Notes under the pieces: model-generated
What the model was told of the DNA's origin: nothing
The model's database searches: none
Seen by the model: only the letters and a program-made list of their open reading frames with translations
Shown: piece after piece, positions 20,733-32,833 of the stretch
Layout of the letters: every line of letters begins with the position of its first letter
Numbering within the stretch: the stretch's first letter is position 1
Origin: Rhodoluna limnophila
Lineage (GTDB): Bacteria; Actinomycetota; Actinomycetes; Actinomycetales; Microbacteriaceae
Assembly (NCBI GenBank): GCA_945883505.1
Contig: CAMCXL010000001.1
Location: 1 to 64,000, forward strand
Reading direction: 5' to 3'
Length of the DNA stretch: 64,000 nt
Made by a program: the position numbers and the translations under genes

Positions 20733-22591
20733 CGAGAAATAATGGTGACGCTGTCGCCAACCCGAGTTTCACTTCCGGCGGTTGGAGTTTGATTTCTAAC
20801 TTTGGCGATTCCAAAATTGCTGGATAGCTGATTGGTGTCAATTACCACTCGAAGCCCTAGGTTTTCAAGCAGGGTCTTGGCAGCCGCGATGGTTTCTCCA
20901 ACCACGTTTGGCATGATCACAATCTCCGGTCCTTTGGATGTCTCAAGCTTTACTTTTCCGCCTTCTTCAAGCGGGGTTTTTGAAAGTACGAGGGACACCA
21001 CCGAACCGGCTGGAATTTCGTTGCTAAATACCTCGGCTTCCTCAAGGACTATGTCGATGTCGGCAAGTAAAGCTCGCGCTTGTTCCGCGGTTAATCCAGC
21101 CACTTCCGGTAGCTCACCTAGTGATACTCGAATGTCAATCACGCTGCCTTGGTTCAAGACCGCTCCGATTTCAGCAGAAAGGGCGAACACTTGGCCACTG
21201 GGCTCTGAGCTAAAGAAGTTCTTGATGGCGCCGGGTGTGAAGCCGCTGTCGCTCAGAAGCGACCTGGCCTCTTGGGGGCTTAGCCCACGCGCGTCCGGAA
21301 CCTTTAGTTGTTTTGGACCCAAGGAAAGGTAAATAGTCACGGTTGACCCCTTGAAAATTCGGGAACCAGAAGCCGGATCAGTTCTTGATACTGCACCGAC
21401 TGGAACAGTTGCACTATCTTCCTCGGCCTGCTCGATTATCACTTCCAGTGGCTCCAGCGCCAAAATCGCTGCCTCAAGAGTTCGTCCGGTTAGGTCAGGA
21501 ATAACTGCAAGCCCACCAGGCCCGGAAGAAAACCACCAACCGGAACCGGCTCCTCCAAATATCGCCAGCAGGGTAAAAACAGTCAACCAAAGCTTGGATC
21601 GCCGATTGGCTTTTTGAAGTTTCAATGCGATTCCCGAATTGAATTGTTCAGGTTCTAGAGTCTCCAGCGAGATAACCTCGGTTGCCCCGGCCGGTGCTAA
21701 GAATTCCTCATCAAAGTTAATCCTTGCTGTCTTGTCTATTTGTTGAAGCGATGTATCCAGGCCGCGGGCCAGATCGGATCTAGCTCTTTTGATAACGGGA
21801 AGTAAAGCTTCAGCCGAGGAAGGCCTATGGGCCGGATTTCTAGCGGTTGCCCAGAGAACTATCTCATCCAGCAGCTCGGGAACTGTTGGCTTCACACTTG
21901 AAGGTGCCGGGATGTTGTCATTGGCGTGCTGGTAGGCGATCTGCACCGCTTGCTCGCCTTGATAAGGCTGCGACCCGGTGAGCATTTCAAAGATCATCAC
22001 ACCCAGTGAGTAGACATCGCTTCTGGCATCTGCTTGGCCGCGAAGAACTAATTCGGGGGATAGGTAAGCAACTGTTCCAACCACCGATCCAGTTTGAGTG
22101 TGTTGGGTGATTGCCCTGGCAAGGCCGAAGTCACCGAGTTTGACTGTGCCGCCGTTTGATAGAAAAACATTCTCGGGCTTTAGATCCCGGTGCAAAATTC
22201 CGGCAGCGTGCGCTGCCGCGAGGGCGGCCGTTAGTGGCTCAATAATGTCGAGAGTCTTGTTGGCATCGAGGGCACCAAAGTCATTCATGGCATCGCGAAG
22301 AGTGATTCCTGGGACGTATTCCATCACAAGGAAAATCACCTCGCCATCGGTGCCTTGATCGAAGACATTAACTAGATTCGGGTGCGAGAGCTTGGCGGCA
22401 ACCTTGGCTTCTCTTCGAAACTTATCGACGAAGGATTTATCCTTGGCCAGGTGCGGGTGAATGACTTTTAGAGCCACCTCGCGATCTAGCACGTTGTCTT
22501 GGGCGAGATAGACACTAGCCATGCCGCCTTCGGCAACCAGTGAACGAACGAGGTAGCGCTGAGCAATCAATTGGCCGGCTAAGTTAGCCAC
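20729..22591 (-). CDS. pknL: PASTA-domain serine/threonine kinase, PknL type
   Basis: This 620-residue membrane receptor kinase has an N-terminal kinase domain with a GGMASVY loop (22-28), Lys42, HRDLKPEN (134-141) and DFG (154-156). A single membrane helix follows at about 334-354. Four PASTA repeats (about 363-620) face the outside and probably bind cell-wall fragments. The neighbours aroG, Rv2175c-like gene and prenyl synthase match the pknL locus rather than the pknAB locus near the origin. It overlaps the upstream LysM gene by 8 bases, so sensor and wall enzyme are likely made together. Confidence 0.92.
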   Translation of the reverse strand: MANLAGQLIAQRYLVRSLVAEGGMASVYLAQDNVLDREVALKVIHPHLAKDKSFVDKFRREAKVAAKLSHPNLVNVFDQGTDGEVIFLVMEYVPGITLRDAMNDFGALDANKTLDIIEPLTAALAAAHAAGILHRDLKPENVFLSNGGTVKLGDFGLARAITQHTQTGSVVGTVAYLSPELVLRGQADARSDVYSLGVMIFEMLTGSQPYQGEQAVQIAYQHANDNIPAPSSVKPTVPELLDEIVLWATARNPAHRPSSAEALLPVIKRARSDLARGLDTSLQQIDKTARINFDEEFLAPAGATEVISLETLEPEQFNSGIALKLQKANRRSKLWLTVFTLLAIFGGAGSGWWFSSGPGGLAVIPDLTGRTLEAAILALEPLEVIIEQAEEDSATVPVGAVSRTDPASGSRIFKGSTVTIYLSLGPKQLKVPDARGLSPQEARSLLSDSGFTPGAIKNFFSSEPSGQVFALSAEIGAVLNQGSVIDIRVSLGELPEVAGLTAEQARALLADIDIVLEEAEVFSNEIPAGSVVSLVLSKTPLEEGGKVKLETSKGPEIVIMPNVVGETIAAAKTLLENLGLRVVIDTNQLSSNFGIAKVRNQTPTAGSETRVGDSVTIISR

Positions 22592-24026
22592 TAGCGCCCG
22601 CCTCGATTAGGTCAAGCCAGCTCCACGCCGAGAGCTCCCATTTTTGATAGGCCTCTGGAAAAGCCGAAATCTGCACCGCTTGGGCAGCTTTAGTTAAGGT
22701 CATGGTGGACCAGTTCTTTATATCTAACAGTCCGCGAACTTTTCCAAAGTTGGGACCGCTGGCCCCTCCAAAAAACGCCCTGGCCGAATACTCCGGATCC
22801 ATTATTTGTTCAACGCTGCCCCAACCTTGACTTGGTCTTTGCTGGAACAGTCCAATCGAATCACGATCGCCGAAATCAATGTTTTTCAGACTGGACTCTT
22901 GCATTGCGGTCGCTAGGGCAATTGCAATTCCATAGTCACTAACTCCAAGGCTTTTGCCAACTCGATGGATTACTTCAGCATTTGATCGCATCTCTGGGGA
23001 GAGCTTAGTGATGCTGGGGCAGTGCTTTATTTCGTGCACGCCCGGAATAGTAAGTCGCTGACCGACATAGATTGTGCTGGACCAGCTCAAAGAGTTTGCA
23101 CTTAGCACCGATTGAGTGCTCACTCCGTAAACGGCGGCAATCCGGCTAACTGTCTCGCCGGCCAGTACGGTGTGAAAGCCGTGGATCGTGCAGGCTCCGG
23201 TGGGCCGCATCGGGTCTAGGTTTGATATTTCGTCGCTCAGGGTACTTGCCGAGGGAGCGGGAGCAGCAGGGCTTGCATCAGAGGTTGGGGCTCTAGGAGC
23301 CTCGGGTGCAACCGGAGGCTTAGCTTGAGTCGGTTTTAGACTCAAAACCTGCCCGACGTAAATGATTGAGTTTTTGTTTAGACCGTTGAAATCTCGAAGT
23401 GCTGACAGGCTCAGTGAAAAACGTTTTGCTATCGACTCAAGGGAGTCCCCGGCCTGAACTTGGTAGCTATCGGGTGAATTAGCTTCCGGAGCCGGTGTAG
23501 TTAGTATTTTGGCAACCCGAAGCACCTGGCCCGGATAAATGATGGTTTTGGAAGATATTCGATTCACCGCAGTCAGTTCCTGCAGAGTCAAGCCGTGTCT
23601 TTTAGCAATCGCCGATAGGTTATCGCCAGCCTTAACACGGTAGCTTTCCACCACTGCTTTTTTTGGCGAAGAACCGGTTAGCTTTAGGGTTTGTCCGACC
23701 CTGATCAAAGAGTTGGGACCTAGGTTATTGAGCTGGGCTATTTTCGATATCGAGACCCCGAAGCGTTTTGCAATTTGAGTGACGGTATCACCGGATTTGA
23801 CGCGGTAGCTTGAAACTGGATTTGCCTTTACTACCTCTGGAATTGCTCCAGTTACCTCGGTTGAAACCGAGGCTTGCGTTAGCTCCTGGGAGTCTGAGTT
23901 CTTTTGAACCTCGGAGCTGGGGCTGGCACTTACTGGAAGTTCTCCTAAAACCGGCGAGGCCATGGCTAGGGGTACAGAAAGCATCGCCAACTTATTTGGC
24001 TTTTTTGGTTTATCCGAGCGATCCAT
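22584..24026 (-). CDS. LysM-repeat exported protein with lysozyme-like domain
   Basis: This is an exported protein of 480 residues. After a basic start and a hydrophobic segment (LAMLSVPLAMASPVL) it has four LysM repeats that bind peptidoglycan, each with the YRVKxGD start and VGQ end, separated by Pro/Ala-rich linkers. The last 150 residues carry a lysozyme-like fold seen in actinobacterial wall proteins (AMQESSLKNIDFGDRDSIGLFQQRP, here given as the span around the ES pair), with the Glu as probable acid. The ATG at 24026 has GAGGTG upstream. A longer frame to 24203 would run into the opposite gene and is rejected. It probably remodels cell wall. Confidence 0.82.
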   Translation of the reverse strand: MDRSDKPKKPNKLAMLSVPLAMASPVLGELPVSASPSSEVQKNSDSQELTQASVSTEVTGAIPEVVKANPVSSYRVKSGDTVTQIAKRFGVSISKIAQLNNLGPNSLIRVGQTLKLTGSSPKKAVVESYRVKAGDNLSAIAKRHGLTLQELTAVNRISSKTIIYPGQVLRVAKILTTPAPEANSPDSYQVQAGDSLESIAKRFSLSLSALRDFNGLNKNSIIYVGQVLSLKPTQAKPPVAPEAPRAPTSDASPAAPAPSASTLSDEISNLDPMRPTGACTIHGFHTVLAGETVSRIAAVYGVSTQSVLSANSLSWSSTIYVGQRLTIPGVHEIKHCPSITKLSPEMRSNAEVIHRVGKSLGVSDYGIAIALATAMQESSLKNIDFGDRDSIGLFQQRPSQGWGSVEQIMDPEYSARAFFGGASGPNFGKVRGLLDIKNWSTMTLTKAAQAVQISAFPEAYQKWELSAWSWLDLIEAGASG

Positions 24027-24078
24027 AGGCACCTCAAGCTTCACACAGCCAGAATGGTTATTCCCTGAACCGGCTAGG

Positions 24079-24444
24079 GTGTGGCAGGCTTGGAGGGTGA
24101 ATAACCCTTCGGACAAGGTCGCCAACTGGCTGACCATTTTGGAAACTGCTGAGCTCTTGGGTATCCCCAAGGGCAAGGTGAACCGACTACTCGAGGAGCA
24201 CACCCTGGTAGCGGTAAAAAAAGACGGTCAGCTGATGATTCCAGCTGAACTGATTGTTGCTGGTGAGCCGCTGGCTCCGCTTCGCGGCACCATAATTATG
24301 TTGCAAGATTCCGGCTACAGCATCGAAGAAGCTGTCGAGTGGCTATACACCCACTCTGAGGTATTGGGGCAGACCCCGCTTCAGTCTCTGCTGGAAGGCA
24401 AGAAGGCTCCAGTTAGGCGCCTAGCTCAGATGCTCGATATCTAA
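24079..24444 (+). CDS. Rv2175c-like DNA-binding protein
   Basis: This is a small winged helix-turn-helix protein of about 121 residues. It contains ILETAELLGIPKGKVNRLL (the helix-turn-helix), followed by VAVKKDGQLMIP and a helical C-terminal part. The mycobacterial homolog Rv2175c is a substrate of PknL, so the divergent kinase gene (with the LysM gene between) is a meaningful neighbour. The start is uncertain: GTG 24079 and GTG 24097 are both possible, and a TTGGAGG sequence directly abuts the second. The longer frame from 23962 overlaps the LysM gene and is unlikely. Confidence 0.78.
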   Translation: MWQAWRVNNPSDKVANWLTILETAELLGIPKGKVNRLLEEHTLVAVKKDGQLMIPAELIVAGEPLAPLRGTIIMLQDSGYSIEEAVEWLYTHSEVLGQTPLQSLLEGKKAPVRRLAQMLDI

Positions 24445-28136: not shown

Positions 28137-29894
28137 ATGAATCACGCGGGACCGGTTAGCGCTAGACGCATCAGACTAATGGTAACCATCTCGGTGATTT
28201 TGGTTGCCGTTTTTGCTATCCGACTCATTGATTTTCAGATCGTTCGAGCCGAATCAATCAATGAAACCTCGCTCGAAAAGCGAGCGGTCACTATGACCAT
28301 CCCAGCTGTTCGTGGCGACATCCTGGATGCCAACGGCAAGGTTCTAGCAACAACCGTCTACCGCTACGACATCAATGCCGCTCCGGCCATTGTTCGGCCA
28401 GTTGAGAAAGTTATTGACGGTATCTCGCAGGTAGTAAGTGTCGAGTCAGTGGTCCAAGAGCTGGCCAGCATCCTGGAACTGGACGCAGCCGAACTACTTC
28501 CAAAGCTGATTGGCACTTCGCACTACGTGAACCTCAAAAAGCGAGTCGATGCGGAAACTCACCGCCAGATTGTTGAACTTGGAATTCCTTGGATTTTCTC
28601 TGACGCTCACCAGAACCGCTTATATCCAAACGGAGCGGTTGCCGGAAACCTCACCGGGTTTGTTGGAACCGATGGGGACGCTCTGGCGGGGATCGAAAGA
28701 CAGTTCAACGCTTGCCTTGCAGGAGTCGACGGTAAGGAAAGTTTCGAAAAAGGTGTTGACGGAATCAAGATTCCTGCCAGCACGGTAGTGCTGCAGGAAG
28801 CCAGAGCCGGTCAAAACGTGGTTTTGACCATAGATGCTGACCTTCAGTACCAAGCGCAGCAAGTGCTAGCTAGTGAAGTCAGAAGACTCGATGCCGACTG
28901 GGCAACTGCAGTTGTGATCGAGGTAAAAACCGGACGCATAGTGCTTGCCGCTGAGGCGCCGAGTGTGGATCCTAACAACCCTGGAAAATCCAAACCGGAA
29001 GAGCGCGGTGCGAGAGTATTCCAGTTTGCTTTTGAGCCAGGCTCAACCATGAAAGCGATAACTGCCGCGACTGCAATTGAGACCGGTTATGCCAATGTTG
29101 GAACTCCAGTTCGCGCTCCTTATTCGCTTCGAGTATTTGATCACACCATCACAGACAGCTTTGGGCACCCCGCAACAAACTGGACACTGACCGGTGTGTT
29201 ACGGTTTTCCTCCAACACTGGAACCATCAAGATAGCTGAGAACATTCCAGCCAAGACCAGGTACGAGTATATGGAACGGTTCGGTTTTGGTAAGCCAACC
29301 GCGGTTGCATTCGAGGGTGAAACCAGGGGAGTGTTAAACCACTACAAGGATTGGGACGGTGTCACAAACTACACCACGATGTTTGGGCAAGCTCTTTCAG
29401 TATCACCGGTTCAGATGGCCTCGGCATACCAGACCCTTGCCAATGAAGGCGTCAGACTTAATCCAGTTCTGGTGGCTGGATGCCAGGATAGTGATGGCAA
29501 CTTGACCGCAGTGCCAAAAGAAAATGCCACCCAGGTAGTTTCAGCTGCAACTGCCAACGACGTAATGCACATGCTCGAAAAAGTTGTTGAGCAAGGTGGC
29601 ATTGGACAAGCAACTGCCGTTTCGGGATACCGCTCAGCCGGAAAAACGGGAACCGCTGAAATTAAGGAAGGTAGCGGCTATGGTCGCTACTACGCTGCTT
29701 CATTTTATGGAATGGCACCGGTTGATAATCCACAGTATGCGATGGGTGTGATGATCTATAAGCCAAAGCAGGTTTGGCAAAACTCCATGGCGGCTGCAGC
29801 TGGTTATCAAAAGATTCTTTCCCAGGTGCTGCTTGCCAATCGAGTACCACCTTCCACTGGCAAGTCACCGGATTTACCTACCGAATGGAAATAG
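28137..29894 (+). CDS. ftsI: Septal peptidoglycan transpeptidase FtsI (PBP3)
   Basis: This 585-residue class B penicillin-binding protein cross-links septal peptidoglycan. One membrane helix (about 13-33) is followed by the dimerisation domain starting with PAVRGDILDANG. The transpeptidase domain has STMK (Ser303 nucleophile, Lys306), SSN (358-360) and KTGT (503-506). It ends soon after the transpeptidase domain, with no C-terminal PASTA repeat. It works with FtsW, encoded 5.5 kb downstream. Confidence 0.95.
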   Translation: MNHAGPVSARRIRLMVTISVILVAVFAIRLIDFQIVRAESINETSLEKRAVTMTIPAVRGDILDANGKVLATTVYRYDINAAPAIVRPVEKVIDGISQVVSVESVVQELASILELDAAELLPKLIGTSHYVNLKKRVDAETHRQIVELGIPWIFSDAHQNRLYPNGAVAGNLTGFVGTDGDALAGIERQFNACLAGVDGKESFEKGVDGIKIPASTVVLQEARAGQNVVLTIDADLQYQAQQVLASEVRRLDADWATAVVIEVKTGRIVLAAEAPSVDPNNPGKSKPEERGARVFQFAFEPGSTMKAITAATAIETGYANVGTPVRAPYSLRVFDHTITDSFGHPATNWTLTGVLRFSSNTGTIKIAENIPAKTRYEYMERFGFGKPTAVAFEGETRGVLNHYKDWDGVTNYTTMFGQALSVSPVQMASAYQTLANEGVRLNPVLVAGCQDSDGNLTAVPKENATQVVSAATANDVMHMLEKVVEQGGIGQATAVSGYRSAGKTGTAEIKEGSGYGRYYAASFYGMAPVDNPQYAMGVMIYKPKQVWQNSMAAAAGYQKILSQVLLANRVPPSTGKSPDLPTEWK

Positions 29895-31439
29895 TTGGTA
29901 GAGCAATCGATACCCCCAATACTTCGGCCCGATAACCCAAATCAGGTTCGGCTAAGCCAGCTCGCCTCCGAGCTTGGTGTTCCATTCGAGGAAACCTCGA
30001 TAGATGTTTTACTAACCGGTGTTTCGATGAACACCGGTGACATCCGCCAAGGAGACATATTCTTTGCGATGCCCGGATACAAAACTCACGGGGCAAACTT
30101 CGTACAAGAGGCACTAGCCGGCGGAGCAGTTGCGATTGCAACCGACAGCGCAGGACTTGAAATTATTGGAGCAAGCGATGCTCCCGTGATTGTGGTTGAA
30201 AACCCAAGGCTTCGACTGGGCCAGGCGGCCAGGTATGTTTACGGCAATCTCGGTTCCGATATGCCGATTATGTATGGGGTTACAGGTACCAACGGCAAGA
30301 CCTCAACGGTGCATTTCCTATCGGCCATATTCCGACAACTTGGCGCGATCCCTGGCATGAGCTCTAGCGTAGAGCGGCACTTAGCTGAAGACATCATCAT
30401 CTCTCGACTTACCTCTCCGGAAGCCCCGGAATCACACGCCCTGATTGCAAGAATGCGCGAATCGAAAGTAACCGATGTTGGCTGGGAGGTTTCTGCGCAG
30501 GCACTGAAGCAACATCGTGTGGATGGAATCTTTTTCGACGTGGTTGCATTTACGAACCTGAGCCACGATCACTTCGATGAGTTTGATTCATTTCAGCAAT
30601 ACCTGGAATCCAAGATGCCGCTATTTCACAAAGTTCGAGCTGGTAAAGGCGTTGTATGCCTGGACACTTCCTACGGTCAACCTTTCTTGGAAGCCAGTGA
30701 AGTGCCTTGCGTGACAATCACAATTCGTGAGGATGTGGCCTCGGATTGGAAGGTGGTAGTCACCAAGCAAGCAACCGGGCTCACCGCATTTGATTTACTG
30801 GGTCCAAAAGGTGAAAAGATTTCCTCTTCGGTTCCGATCATCGGTGACTACATGGCCTCAAACGCCGGGGTCGCAATTTTGATGGCGATTCAAGCCGGGC
30901 ACGATTGGAAAAAGCTTGCTGCAGCTCTGAAAGATGGCATCGATGCTCCGATTGCCGGTCGCGGTGACAACGTAGCTCCGGAGGGAGCACCGAGTGTCTA
31001 TGTTGATTTTGGTCACACCCCGGATTCGATTGAGATGACAATCCAGGCGGTTAGAAATATCACTCCGGGCAAGCTAATTGTTGTGGTTGGGCTAGACGGC
31101 GATCGCGACAAGATTAAGCGGCCAATGATTGGGGCCATTTGCGCAAGGCTAAGTGACGCGATGATTGTCACAGATCACAATCCAAGGTTTGAAGACCCAG
31201 GCATCATTCGCCAGATGATTTATGACGGGGCCATCTCCGAAAGACCAGATCACGACATCAGAAACCTAGAAGGGCCTGAGCGTGCCATTCGCATCGCAGT
31301 TTCTATGGTCAAAAAAGGCGACACCATAATTTGGTTTGGTCCTGGCCACCAAGAGCACCGAGACATCATGGGAGTTAGAACTAAGTACTCAGGTCGCGAA
31401 CAAGCTCGCCAAGCCCTAGCGGAAGCCGGTTGGAAATGA
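29895..31439 (+). CDS. murE: UDP-MurNAc-tripeptide ligase MurE with altered amino-acid pocket
   Basis: This 514-residue Mur ligase adds the third amino acid to UDP-MurNAc-L-Ala-D-Glu. The ATP loop is GVTGTNGKTSTVHF near residue 130. The motif that binds meso-diaminopimelate in most species, DNPR, reads HNPR here (His428 to Arg431), and GKGHE reads GPGHQ (482-486). A different diamino acid is therefore likely, as in B-type peptidoglycan of Microbacteriaceae. The start is TTG immediately after the ftsI stop. It ends in an ATGA overlap with murF. Confidence 0.92.
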   Translation: MVEQSIPPILRPDNPNQVRLSQLASELGVPFEETSIDVLLTGVSMNTGDIRQGDIFFAMPGYKTHGANFVQEALAGGAVAIATDSAGLEIIGASDAPVIVVENPRLRLGQAARYVYGNLGSDMPIMYGVTGTNGKTSTVHFLSAIFRQLGAIPGMSSSVERHLAEDIIISRLTSPEAPESHALIARMRESKVTDVGWEVSAQALKQHRVDGIFFDVVAFTNLSHDHFDEFDSFQQYLESKMPLFHKVRAGKGVVCLDTSYGQPFLEASEVPCVTITIREDVASDWKVVVTKQATGLTAFDLLGPKGEKISSSVPIIGDYMASNAGVAILMAIQAGHDWKKLAAALKDGIDAPIAGRGDNVAPEGAPSVYVDFGHTPDSIEMTIQAVRNITPGKLIVVVGLDGDRDKIKRPMIGAICARLSDAMIVTDHNPRFEDPGIIRQMIYDGAISERPDHDIRNLEGPERAIRIAVSMVKKGDTIIWFGPGHQEHRDIMGVRTKYSGREQARQALAEAGWK

Positions 31440-32833
31440 TTCGCGTCACTGCTGGCGAATTGGCCAAGGTGCTTTCAGCAAAGCTGGTTGGGGAAGGCGC
31501 AATAGAAATCACCGGTTCGGTCGAGACCGATTCCAGACTTATCGGCTCGGGAGGTCTTTTCATCGCTAAGCCTGGCGAGAAACTAGATGGACACGATTTT
31601 GTTTCTGACGCTAAGGACAAAGGTGCAGTCTTGGCAGTTGTTCAGCAAAGAGTCGATGTTGACATAGCGCAACTAGTTGTTAGTGACAGTGTTTTGGCTC
31701 TGGGTGAACTGGCGGCTTGGTTGATTACGGTTTTGAAGTCAAAGGGCAAGTTGAAAGTTGTTGGCATCACCGGTTCCAACGGTAAGACAACAACCAAGAA
31801 CATGCTGCGGGCAATTTTGTCCAAGGTCGGAAACACAATCGCCCCGATTGAATCGTTCAACAATAAAGTTGGAGCTCCGATTTCGATTCTTCGGGCTGAT
31901 TTAGACACTGAGTTTTTGGTTGTGGAAATGGGTGCCGAAGGACTCGGCAGCATTGCATACCTTGCCAAACTGGCTCGCCCCGACATCGGCGTGATCTTGA
32001 AAGTTGGTATGGCGCACGCTGGAGAATTTGGCGGAATCGAGAATACCGCCATCATCAAGGGCGAACTGGCTGAGGCTCTCAGTTCAGATGGTGAACTTGT
32101 TCTAAACGCCGACGACGCGATGGTTTCTTCGATGAAGGACAGAACAAAGGCCAAGGTGCACTTTTTTGGAACCAGCCCGGAGTTGGAATACTCAGCTTCC
32201 GAGATAGCGCTTTCCAAATCTGGAACTTCTTTCGAGTTGAAGTGGCCTAGTGGGGATAGCTCGAAAATCCAGCTTGGTATCTTGGGTGAGCACCACATCA
32301 TGAATGCTCTAGCTGCAGCATCAGTTGCTACCTTTTTGGGAGCAACCAAACAGCAGATCGTTGGTGCGCTAGAGGCGATGGAGCTAGCCGAGCGCTGGAG
32401 AATGCAGCGGATTGTTAGACCAGATGGCGTCACGGTGATCAATGACGCCTATAACGCCAGCCCAGACTCCATGAAGGCAGCTCTTCAGACGCTGGCTCAG
32501 CTGGGCAAAATGGGCTCAAGGACAATTGCCGTTTTGGGGGAGATGGCCGAACTCGGTGAATATTCGATTCACGAGCACGACTCCATCGGACGCCTGGTGG
32601 TTCGGTTGAACATCGACCAATTGGTAGTGGTTGGTGAAGGGGCAAAGCTGATACACATGGGCGCTAGCCAAGAAGGCTCCTGGGACGGCGAATCGCAGTT
32701 TTTTGTTTCGATTGCCGAGGCTTTGGAGTACCTGCGTGGGATACTCACAGATGGCGATACCGTCTTGGTGAAATCATCCAAGTCGGCTAACTTACGGTTT
32801 TTGGGAGACGACCTCATGGAGCAGGGTAAATGA
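31436..32833 (+). CDS. murF: UDP-MurNAc-tripeptide-D-Ala-D-Ala ligase
   Basis: This 465-residue MurF adds D-Ala-D-Ala to complete the pentapeptide precursor. [15 protein letters not shown] is the ATP loop near residue 108, with the [13 protein letters not shown] segment and [17 protein letters not shown] both typical of MurF. I chose ATG 31436, in an ATGA overlap with murE, over the TTG two codons upstream. The stop overlaps mraY by ATGA. Confidence 0.94.

Follow-up and report, generated by a model that had tools for sequence, protein, structure and literature searches.

An Altered Amino-Acid Pocket in a Rhodoluna MurE and Its Possible Bearing on the Third Residue of B-Type Peptidoglycan

The MurE ligase encoded in the window (the whole stretch of 64,000 nucleotides analyzed here) has lost both of the acids that hold the side-chain amine of the incoming amino acid in Escherichia coli MurE, and it almost certainly does not add meso-diaminopimelate (meso-DAP) at position 3 of the peptidoglycan stem. 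With a probability of roughly 0.55, the main residue added is predicted to be L-homoserine (Hse), perhaps with some L-2,4-diaminobutyrate (Dab) alongside. An earlier sequence-only reading had proposed a third residue other than meso-DAP. That part stood, the pocket being unlike that of a meso-DAP-adding MurE; its listing of Dab, ornithine (Orn), lysine (Lys) and Hse as equals did not. The observation is real and was correctly read, and the family's B-type wall accounts for most of it. What is new here is a code of two MurE classes and a lead to a GatD homolog without its catalytic residues.

The murE Gene and Its Host

The murE gene belongs to a dcw cluster that runs mraZ, mraW, ftsL-like, ftsI, murE, murF, mraY, murD, ftsW, murG, murC and ftsQ-like (Table 1). 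Its genes were named from their size and order, from Mur ligase domains and from matches in relatives. In a profile search the MurE product scored 335.8 bits against TIGR01085, above the family cut-off of 257.3; it carries the Pfam domains Mur_ligase, Mur_ligase_M and Mur_ligase_C, and K240 is retained, as is the P-loop. The host genome (1.22 Mb, 98.3% complete) has six Mur_ligase_M matches, one of them MurE and the rest MurF, MurD, MurC, a FolC-like protein and MurT. An AlphaFold2 model of the protein (mean pLDDT 88.6; 14 sequences in the alignment) has MurE structures as its top PDB matches, with 8g6p first (Z = 42.7, rmsd 2.4 over 500), and it resembles both E. coli MurE (1e8c; Z = 39.6, rmsd 2.5 over 475) and the L-Lys-adding MurE of Staphylococcus aureus (4c12; Z = 40.5, rmsd 2.4 over 480). 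Such a comparison of a predicted model confirms only the MurE fold and carries no information on the ligand.

RpoB of the host shows 87% identity with that of Rhodoluna lacicola (G010); the host is thus a congener of R. lacicola in the Microbacteriaceae but a different species. The earlier placement of this DNA in the Microbacteriaceae is thereby borne out, in the very genus of R. lacicola, whose wall is described as B-type with Dab and Hse (PMC4156110).

Table 1. Coordinates of the murE gene, its pocket motifs and related genes (positions are those of the window unless stated)
Feature	Position	Strand	Remark
ftsI	28137..29894	+	Upstream dcw neighbor; named from size and place; query finds the ftsI place adjoining murE in relatives
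murE	29895..31439	+	TTG start, 514 aa; MurE-family ligase for the third stem residue
P-loop GTNGKT	30285..30302	+	Intact
EVSAQAL, residues 198-204 (E. coli EVSSHGL)	30486..30506	+	E198 and S200 kept; S-H changed to A-Q
F372 (E. coli Y357)	31008..31010	+	Class position: F in H/Q, Y in F/E
R404 (E. coli R389)	31104..31106	+	Kept in 118/119 family loci
HNPR, residues 428-431 (E. coli DNPR 413-416)	31176..31187	+	H428 in place of the amine-binding Asp
W480 (E. coli V462)	31332..31334	+	Class position: W in H/Q, mostly Y in F/E
GPGHQ, residues 482-486 (E. coli GKGHE 464-468)	31338..31352	+	Q486 in place of the amine-binding Glu
murF	31430..32833	+	Downstream dcw neighbor; the genome's top Mur_ligase_M match; 10-base overlap with murE
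murT, then gatD homolog	G000:C1:213019-215027 (L006 272-2280), outside the window	- on L006	GatD without catalytic Cys and His

The Amino-Acid Pocket

Translation of positions 31173-31352 gives DHNPRFED...IIWFGPGHQ, so both altered motifs that had been noticed, HNPR and GPGHQ, are present. Alignment to E. coli K-12 MurE agrees with the residue numbers given for them (H428 = D413, N429 = N414, P430 = P415, R431 = R416, P483 = K465 and Q486 = E468, with R404 = R389) and with the statement that the Arg of HNPR is kept. In E. coli MurE, N414 and R416 contact the far carboxylate of meso-DAP and D413 and E468 hold its side-chain amine; in S. aureus MurE, D406 and E460 hold the lysine amine, and Ala at either of them leads to weaker affinity and less activity (both as given in the available part of PMC3829189). 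In the window MurE the equivalents of Asn414 and Arg416 are present (N429 and R431), and those of Asp413 and Glu468 are replaced (H428 and Q486). The carboxylate side of the pocket is retained and the amine side lost. The P-loop, R389, N414, P415 and R416 of E. coli MurE all have identical counterparts in the window MurE, whereas four changes (D413H, K465P, E468Q and Y357F) set the two apart. The S. aureus enzyme also departs from the DAP set, but in the reverse manner, keeping the Asp and the Glu and having Ala for the Arg (PMC3829189, available part). Moreover, the window MurE misses the cut-offs of the mDAP equivalogs (NF001124, 397.7 of 476; NF001126, 317 of 373) and that of the L-Lys-adding MurE (NF010628, 182.1 of 536), and it has neither the Asp nor the Glu that would hold the amine in an L-Lys-adding enzyme.

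The MurE of R. lacicola MWH-Ta8 (G010, L038) shows 55% identity with the window MurE, occupies the same place in dcw, and shares H428, P483 and Q486; it reads DHHPR and GPGHQ, and thus has HHPR where the window has HNPR. N429 is unusual in this respect, being absent from every other row of the same class (H/Q, defined below) among the 119 family loci; most rows of that class read HHPR. The change of the SSHAL-type motif to EVSAQAL had also been noticed. It does not mark the third residue, since it is common to both family classes (A201 in 102/119 and Q202 in 87/119 loci), and it was dropped as a helper in the choice of the third residue.

Two Classes of MurE in Microbacteriaceae

We compared 119 MurE loci (117 distinct) from Microbacteriaceae genomes. 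H428, R431, P483 and Q486 occur together in 34 of the 119, and F or Y428 with R431, P483 and E486 in 50 (48 distinct); a further 10 have D428, H431, K483 and E486, and the remaining 25 have mixed residues at these four positions. An acid at both 428 and 486 is found in only 12 of the 119 loci. The recurrence of the H/Q and F/Y-E patterns indicates that the substitution in the window is not due to chance. A search for the nearest MurEs outside the family returned 30 loci, of which 20 belong to other families of the order; in 20/20 of these, position 413 is D or E and position 468 is E. A genome-wide pattern scan, which is a sample because the pattern demands particular codons, gave at least 119 stretches, and MurE was found in 118 of the 119 listed. 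Among these listed matches, 63 MurEs are not assigned to the Microbacteriaceae: both positions can be read in 52, every one of which has D413/E468, 9 are incomplete, and two from actinobacteria unassigned to Microbacteriaceae (L128 and L215) are of the family's F/Y-E kind. The same substitutions in meso-DAP species, which the sequence-only reading had named as evidence against itself, were thus sought and not found in these samples from other families.

Two large classes are evident: H428/Q486 (with F372 and W480), hereafter H/Q, and F or Y428/E486 (with Y372 and mostly Y480), hereafter F/E. When 69 distinct P483/Q486 rows were compared with 68 P483/E486 rows, classes being defined by column 486, only 7 of 509 columns split them at a residue overlap of ≤0.10 (372, 428, 462, 480, 486, 490 and 496). 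At position 428, H is found in 67 of the 69 former rows and F/Y in 65 of the 68 latter, so the second known amine contact is among the few fixed class differences besides the defining 486. The window MurE has the full H/Q set of F372, H428, R431, W480, P483 and Q486. The F/E-class MurEs (as in Agromyces, Cryobacterium, Subtercola and Leifsonia) are like it in P483, R431, EVS/TAQAL and the place in dcw, but unlike it in F or Y428, E486, Y372 and mostly Y480.

MurE of the H/Q class is found in Frondihabitans, Frigoribacterium, Curtobacterium (dcw copy), Galbitalea, Marisediminicola (dcw copy), Microcella, Gryllotalpicola, Microbacterium and R. lacicola, and that of the F/E class in Agromyces, Cryobacterium, Subtercola, Herbiconiux, Leifsonia, Naasia, Planctomonas and Rathayibacter (dcw copy); Mycetocola, Labedella and Agrococcus have MurE of neither class. 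An RpoB tree of 30 genomes (27 labeled; a quick method, with 10/27 inner branches starred) requires no fewer than 5 changes of class label, whereas 2 are enough on a MurE tree of 125 rows (50 H/Q and 40 F/E) from which the motif columns had been removed. The kind of MurE therefore reflects more than mere kinship. MurE lineages seem, on these trees, to have moved between genera, via transfer or via loss after duplication. The classes are gene lineages too, and their pocket residues are inseparable from other lineage differences.

Some genomes carry several MurEs. In Rathayibacter Leaf185 there are three, an F/E copy in dcw and, at other sites, an H/Q copy and one with GPGDT. Each of the two Curtobacterium genomes combines an H/Q copy in dcw with a GPGLT copy outside it. 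Extra murE genes outside dcw, with motifs GPGLT, GPGDT or GPGSY, or GPGHQ in Rathayibacter, were seen at L379 and L383 (Rathayibacter), L375 and L380 (Curtobacterium) and L382 (Marisediminicola). Rathayibacter, presumably with a Dab wall, was considered as a breaker of the rule and dropped, its dcw copy being F/E. In Microbacterium, H/Q is found in 10/10 loci (L135, L138, L139, L160, L168, L188, L194, L202, L223 and L232). None of these ten murE genes has an adjoining ftsI or murF, and a single murE was detected at E 1e-40 in each of six Microbacterium genomes.

Several other family MurEs are of separate kinds. Ten (L007-L011, L013-L016 and L123) look canonical in GKGHE and EVSSHAL but have DDVH for DNPR, with His at the place of Arg416; the nine of these loci that have flanks lack an adjoining ftsI or murF. 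The Mycetocola- and Labedella-type MurEs (L195, L209, L080, L100, L101, L106 and L111) have GLAEK or GLAGK for GPGHQ, with Lys at the place of Glu468. A 0.9-Mb family member (L121 in G015:C1), which we take to be probably Tropheryma whipplei, has a very divergent MurE with GHSR and GFGDD.

Wall Chemistry and MurE Class

The R. lacicola wall is reported as B2beta (B10), with Dab 0.8 : Ala 0.5 : Gly 0.9 : Hse 0.4 : Glu 1.0, and D-Ala-D-Dab was found in it, which places D-Dab in the bridge (PMC4156110, available part). Reported types for other genera are D-Lys B2beta for Frigoribacterium, Orn B2beta for Frondihabitans and Dab B2gamma for Cryobacterium (Table 3 of PMC7033078), and Dab B2gamma for Subtercola and D-Orn B2beta for Frondihabitans (PMC5945732). 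In Clavibacter, position 3 is occupied by L-Dab and the bridge by D-Dab (PMC9603630, available part). The MurE of genome G034 is Y/E. This genome, which we believe to be Clavibacter, was left out of the wall-type count. MurE is H/Q in 3/3 B2beta/B10 taxa and F/E in 2/2 B2gamma genera as far as the sources describe their walls, a pattern that is consistent with a rule but not significant (exact p = 0.1). The proposal that wall type is predictable from pocket positions is thus only partly upheld: the classes follow wall type in the five taxa checked, but p is 0.1. Schleifer and Kandler are said to have placed L-Hse at position 3 of B2beta in 1972. The walls of Agromyces, Leifsonia, Herbiconiux and Rathayibacter are B2gamma, and the Curtobacterium wall has Hse with D-Orn.

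Species descriptions often quote the diamino acid of the bridge, and position 3 therefore cannot be read directly from them. Some L-Lys species of Microbacterium probably have Lys at position 3. The uniform H/Q class of Microbacterium fits the rule if the quoted acid is that of the bridge; any species with Lys at position 3 would break it. For this genus the quoted diamino acid varies, being D-Orn, L-Lys or Dab in the available part of PMC10757982.

A gene for Dab aminotransferase (TIGR00709) scored above cut-off in 6 of 30 genomes, namely G034, Agromyces, a Pseudoclavibacter-like genome (G073), Leifsonia (where the match has an internal stop), Planctomonas and M. aerolatum. It was above cut-off in 5 of 10 F/E genomes and below in Rathayibacter, Subtercola, Cryobacterium, Herbiconiux and Naasia, and is thus poor backing for the assignment of Dab to the F/E half. 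None of six genomes of the genus Rhodoluna reached the cut-off (240.9 bits for the host vs 401.6). Such a gene neither proves nor excludes the use of Dab. The host genome also has DapF and LysA; meso-DAP should thus be made for lysine, and MurE must refuse it.

The Third Residue

Because both amine-holding acids are lost, a neutral residue fits the pocket, which favors L-Hse. In the same direction, the B2gamma genera with published Dab (Subtercola and Cryobacterium) keep the equivalent of Glu468, whereas the class of the window has lost both acids. The window MurE is best explained as the working MurE of a B-type peptidoglycan, its acceptor for the third residue being UDP-MurNAc-(Gly or Ala)-D-Glu. 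With no anions in the H/Q pocket, an ammonium side chain would be left unpartnered while a hydroxyl could bond to Gln or His, and the pocket would prefer a residue without a side-chain amine, that is, L-Hse, with possible leakage to L-Dab. In the sister class the aromatic F/Y428 would shorten the pocket and E486 would leave one carboxylate, which would suit the short L-Dab. The diamino acid quoted for H/Q genera would then sit in the bridge, placed there by another enzyme.

Against L-Hse, the R. lacicola wall contains only 0.4 Hse per Glu and 0.8 Dab (PMC4156110, available part), so that Dab may share position 3. This excess of Dab, together with reports that MurE choice can track metabolite pools (lysine in S. 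aureus, PMC3829189; Thermotoga maritima, PMC9434261; available parts), makes it possible, though rather doubtful, that the H/Q enzyme is an L-Dab ligase or takes Hse and Dab alike, with pool size setting the residue. However, the Dab B2gamma genera with a readable MurE, Subtercola and Cryobacterium, are of the F/E class, and the window MurE has neither amine-binding acid. TIGR00709 also falls below cut-off in the host but above it in five F/E-type genomes and M. aerolatum, a weak point given that five other F/E genomes are below as well and that the Dab of R. lacicola needs some source. Addition of L-Lys or L-Orn is unlikely. Several H/Q genera are described with Lys or Orn as their diamino acid, yet lysine in S. 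aureus MurE requires the Asp and Glu (D406 and E460) that the window MurE has lost (PMC3829189), and the isomer quoted for Frigoribacterium and Frondihabitans is D, which points to the bridge and away from MurE. That MurE still adds meso-DAP through altered contacts is very improbable: N429 and R431 are kept and the presence of DapF and LysA means that DAP should be made, but the protein does not reach the mDAP equivalog cut-offs, it lacks the two amine-binding acids, and the R. lacicola hydrolysate, as listed in the available part of PMC4156110, does not include DAP. A decaying murE, or a protein that is not the MurE in use, is scarcely credible in spite of the long branch (0.89 for its terminal branch in the MurE tree; ≤55% identity to congeners), as none of the other five Mur_ligase_M matches of the genome is a MurE, its gene is in dcw, the P-loop and K240 are kept, and the predicted model is good.

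MurT and a GatD Homolog Lacking Catalytic Residues

Preferential use of L-Hse by the H/Q MurE would leave the bridge diamino acid to another enzyme, and a candidate is encoded elsewhere in the host genome. Cys94 and His189 of GatD form a putative catalytic triad with D349 of MurT (PMC6113224, available part). In the host, Cys94 is Gly and His189 is Asn, so the two GatD residues of a MurT/GatD amidotransferase are missing, while D349 of MurT is kept. Among 69 family loci, 57 have a GatD without the Cys (Gly in 38, Ala in 11, other residues in 8), and 33 of these keep the His; the MurT partners of Cys-less GatD keep the Mg-binding Glu108 in 57/57 and D349 in 51/57. The remaining 12 of the 69 keep the Cys, the His and the Asp, and two genomes carry both the intact and the Cys-less kind. 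In other families the Cys is kept in 30/30 loci examined, of 47 matches (L297 has a CGMYQ motif). Across 16 genera and 3 further genomes with a match, the Cys is absent in 19/19 GatDs, one more locus being incomplete. Loss of the MurT zinc ribbon was considered as a mark of a new kind and dropped, as the kinds could not be told apart by their CxxC counts.

In the B-type wall of Clavibacter the D-Glu carboxyl bears the bridge (PMC9603630, available part). Since MurT keeps its ATP site and is left without an ammonia source, MurT with Cys-less GatD is a natural candidate for attachment of the bridge amino acid. This role cannot be the whole story, since GatD is intact at some family loci and no MurT was found in some genera. 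At E 1e-6, MurT had no match in two of two Microbacterium genomes, in Microcella or in Agrococcus, nor in 16 of 20 further genomes missed by the Pfam search, and the idea of a universal B-type enzyme was dropped for this reason. Microbacterium bridges also contain Gly, which may matter for the absence of MurT.

We tentatively put forward a wider scheme, possible but less than likely, in which two enzymes of the A-type wall have been repurposed for the B-type wall. MurE would have become an L-Hse ligase by a four-position switch (F372, H428, W480 and Q486, the L-Dab version being Y, F/Y, Y and E), and MurT with a glutaminase-less GatD (Cys94 changed to Gly or Ala in most) would join a single bridge D-diamino acid to the alpha-carboxyl of D-Glu instead of amidating it with ammonia.

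Implications and Related Observations

B-type peptidoglycans have been in taxonomic use for decades. Among the matches listed in our literature search, no title or abstract links the third residue of B-type walls to MurE residues, and no listed paper joins MurT, GatD and Microbacteriaceae, though a paper covering only part of the topic could be missed. A residue code for position 3 would allow guesses of wall type for uncultured freshwater actinobacteria, and part of the wall chemistry might be readable from the genome. If the repurposing of MurE and MurT is true, it would name a bridge-attaching enzyme and help to predict B2beta and B2gamma walls from two genes.

Elsewhere in the window, an open reading frame for a protein with four LysM stretches (22584-24203, minus strand) overlaps by 242 bases one on the opposite strand for an Rv2175c-like DNA-binding protein (23962-24444, plus strand); the start of the LysM protein is probably further downstream.
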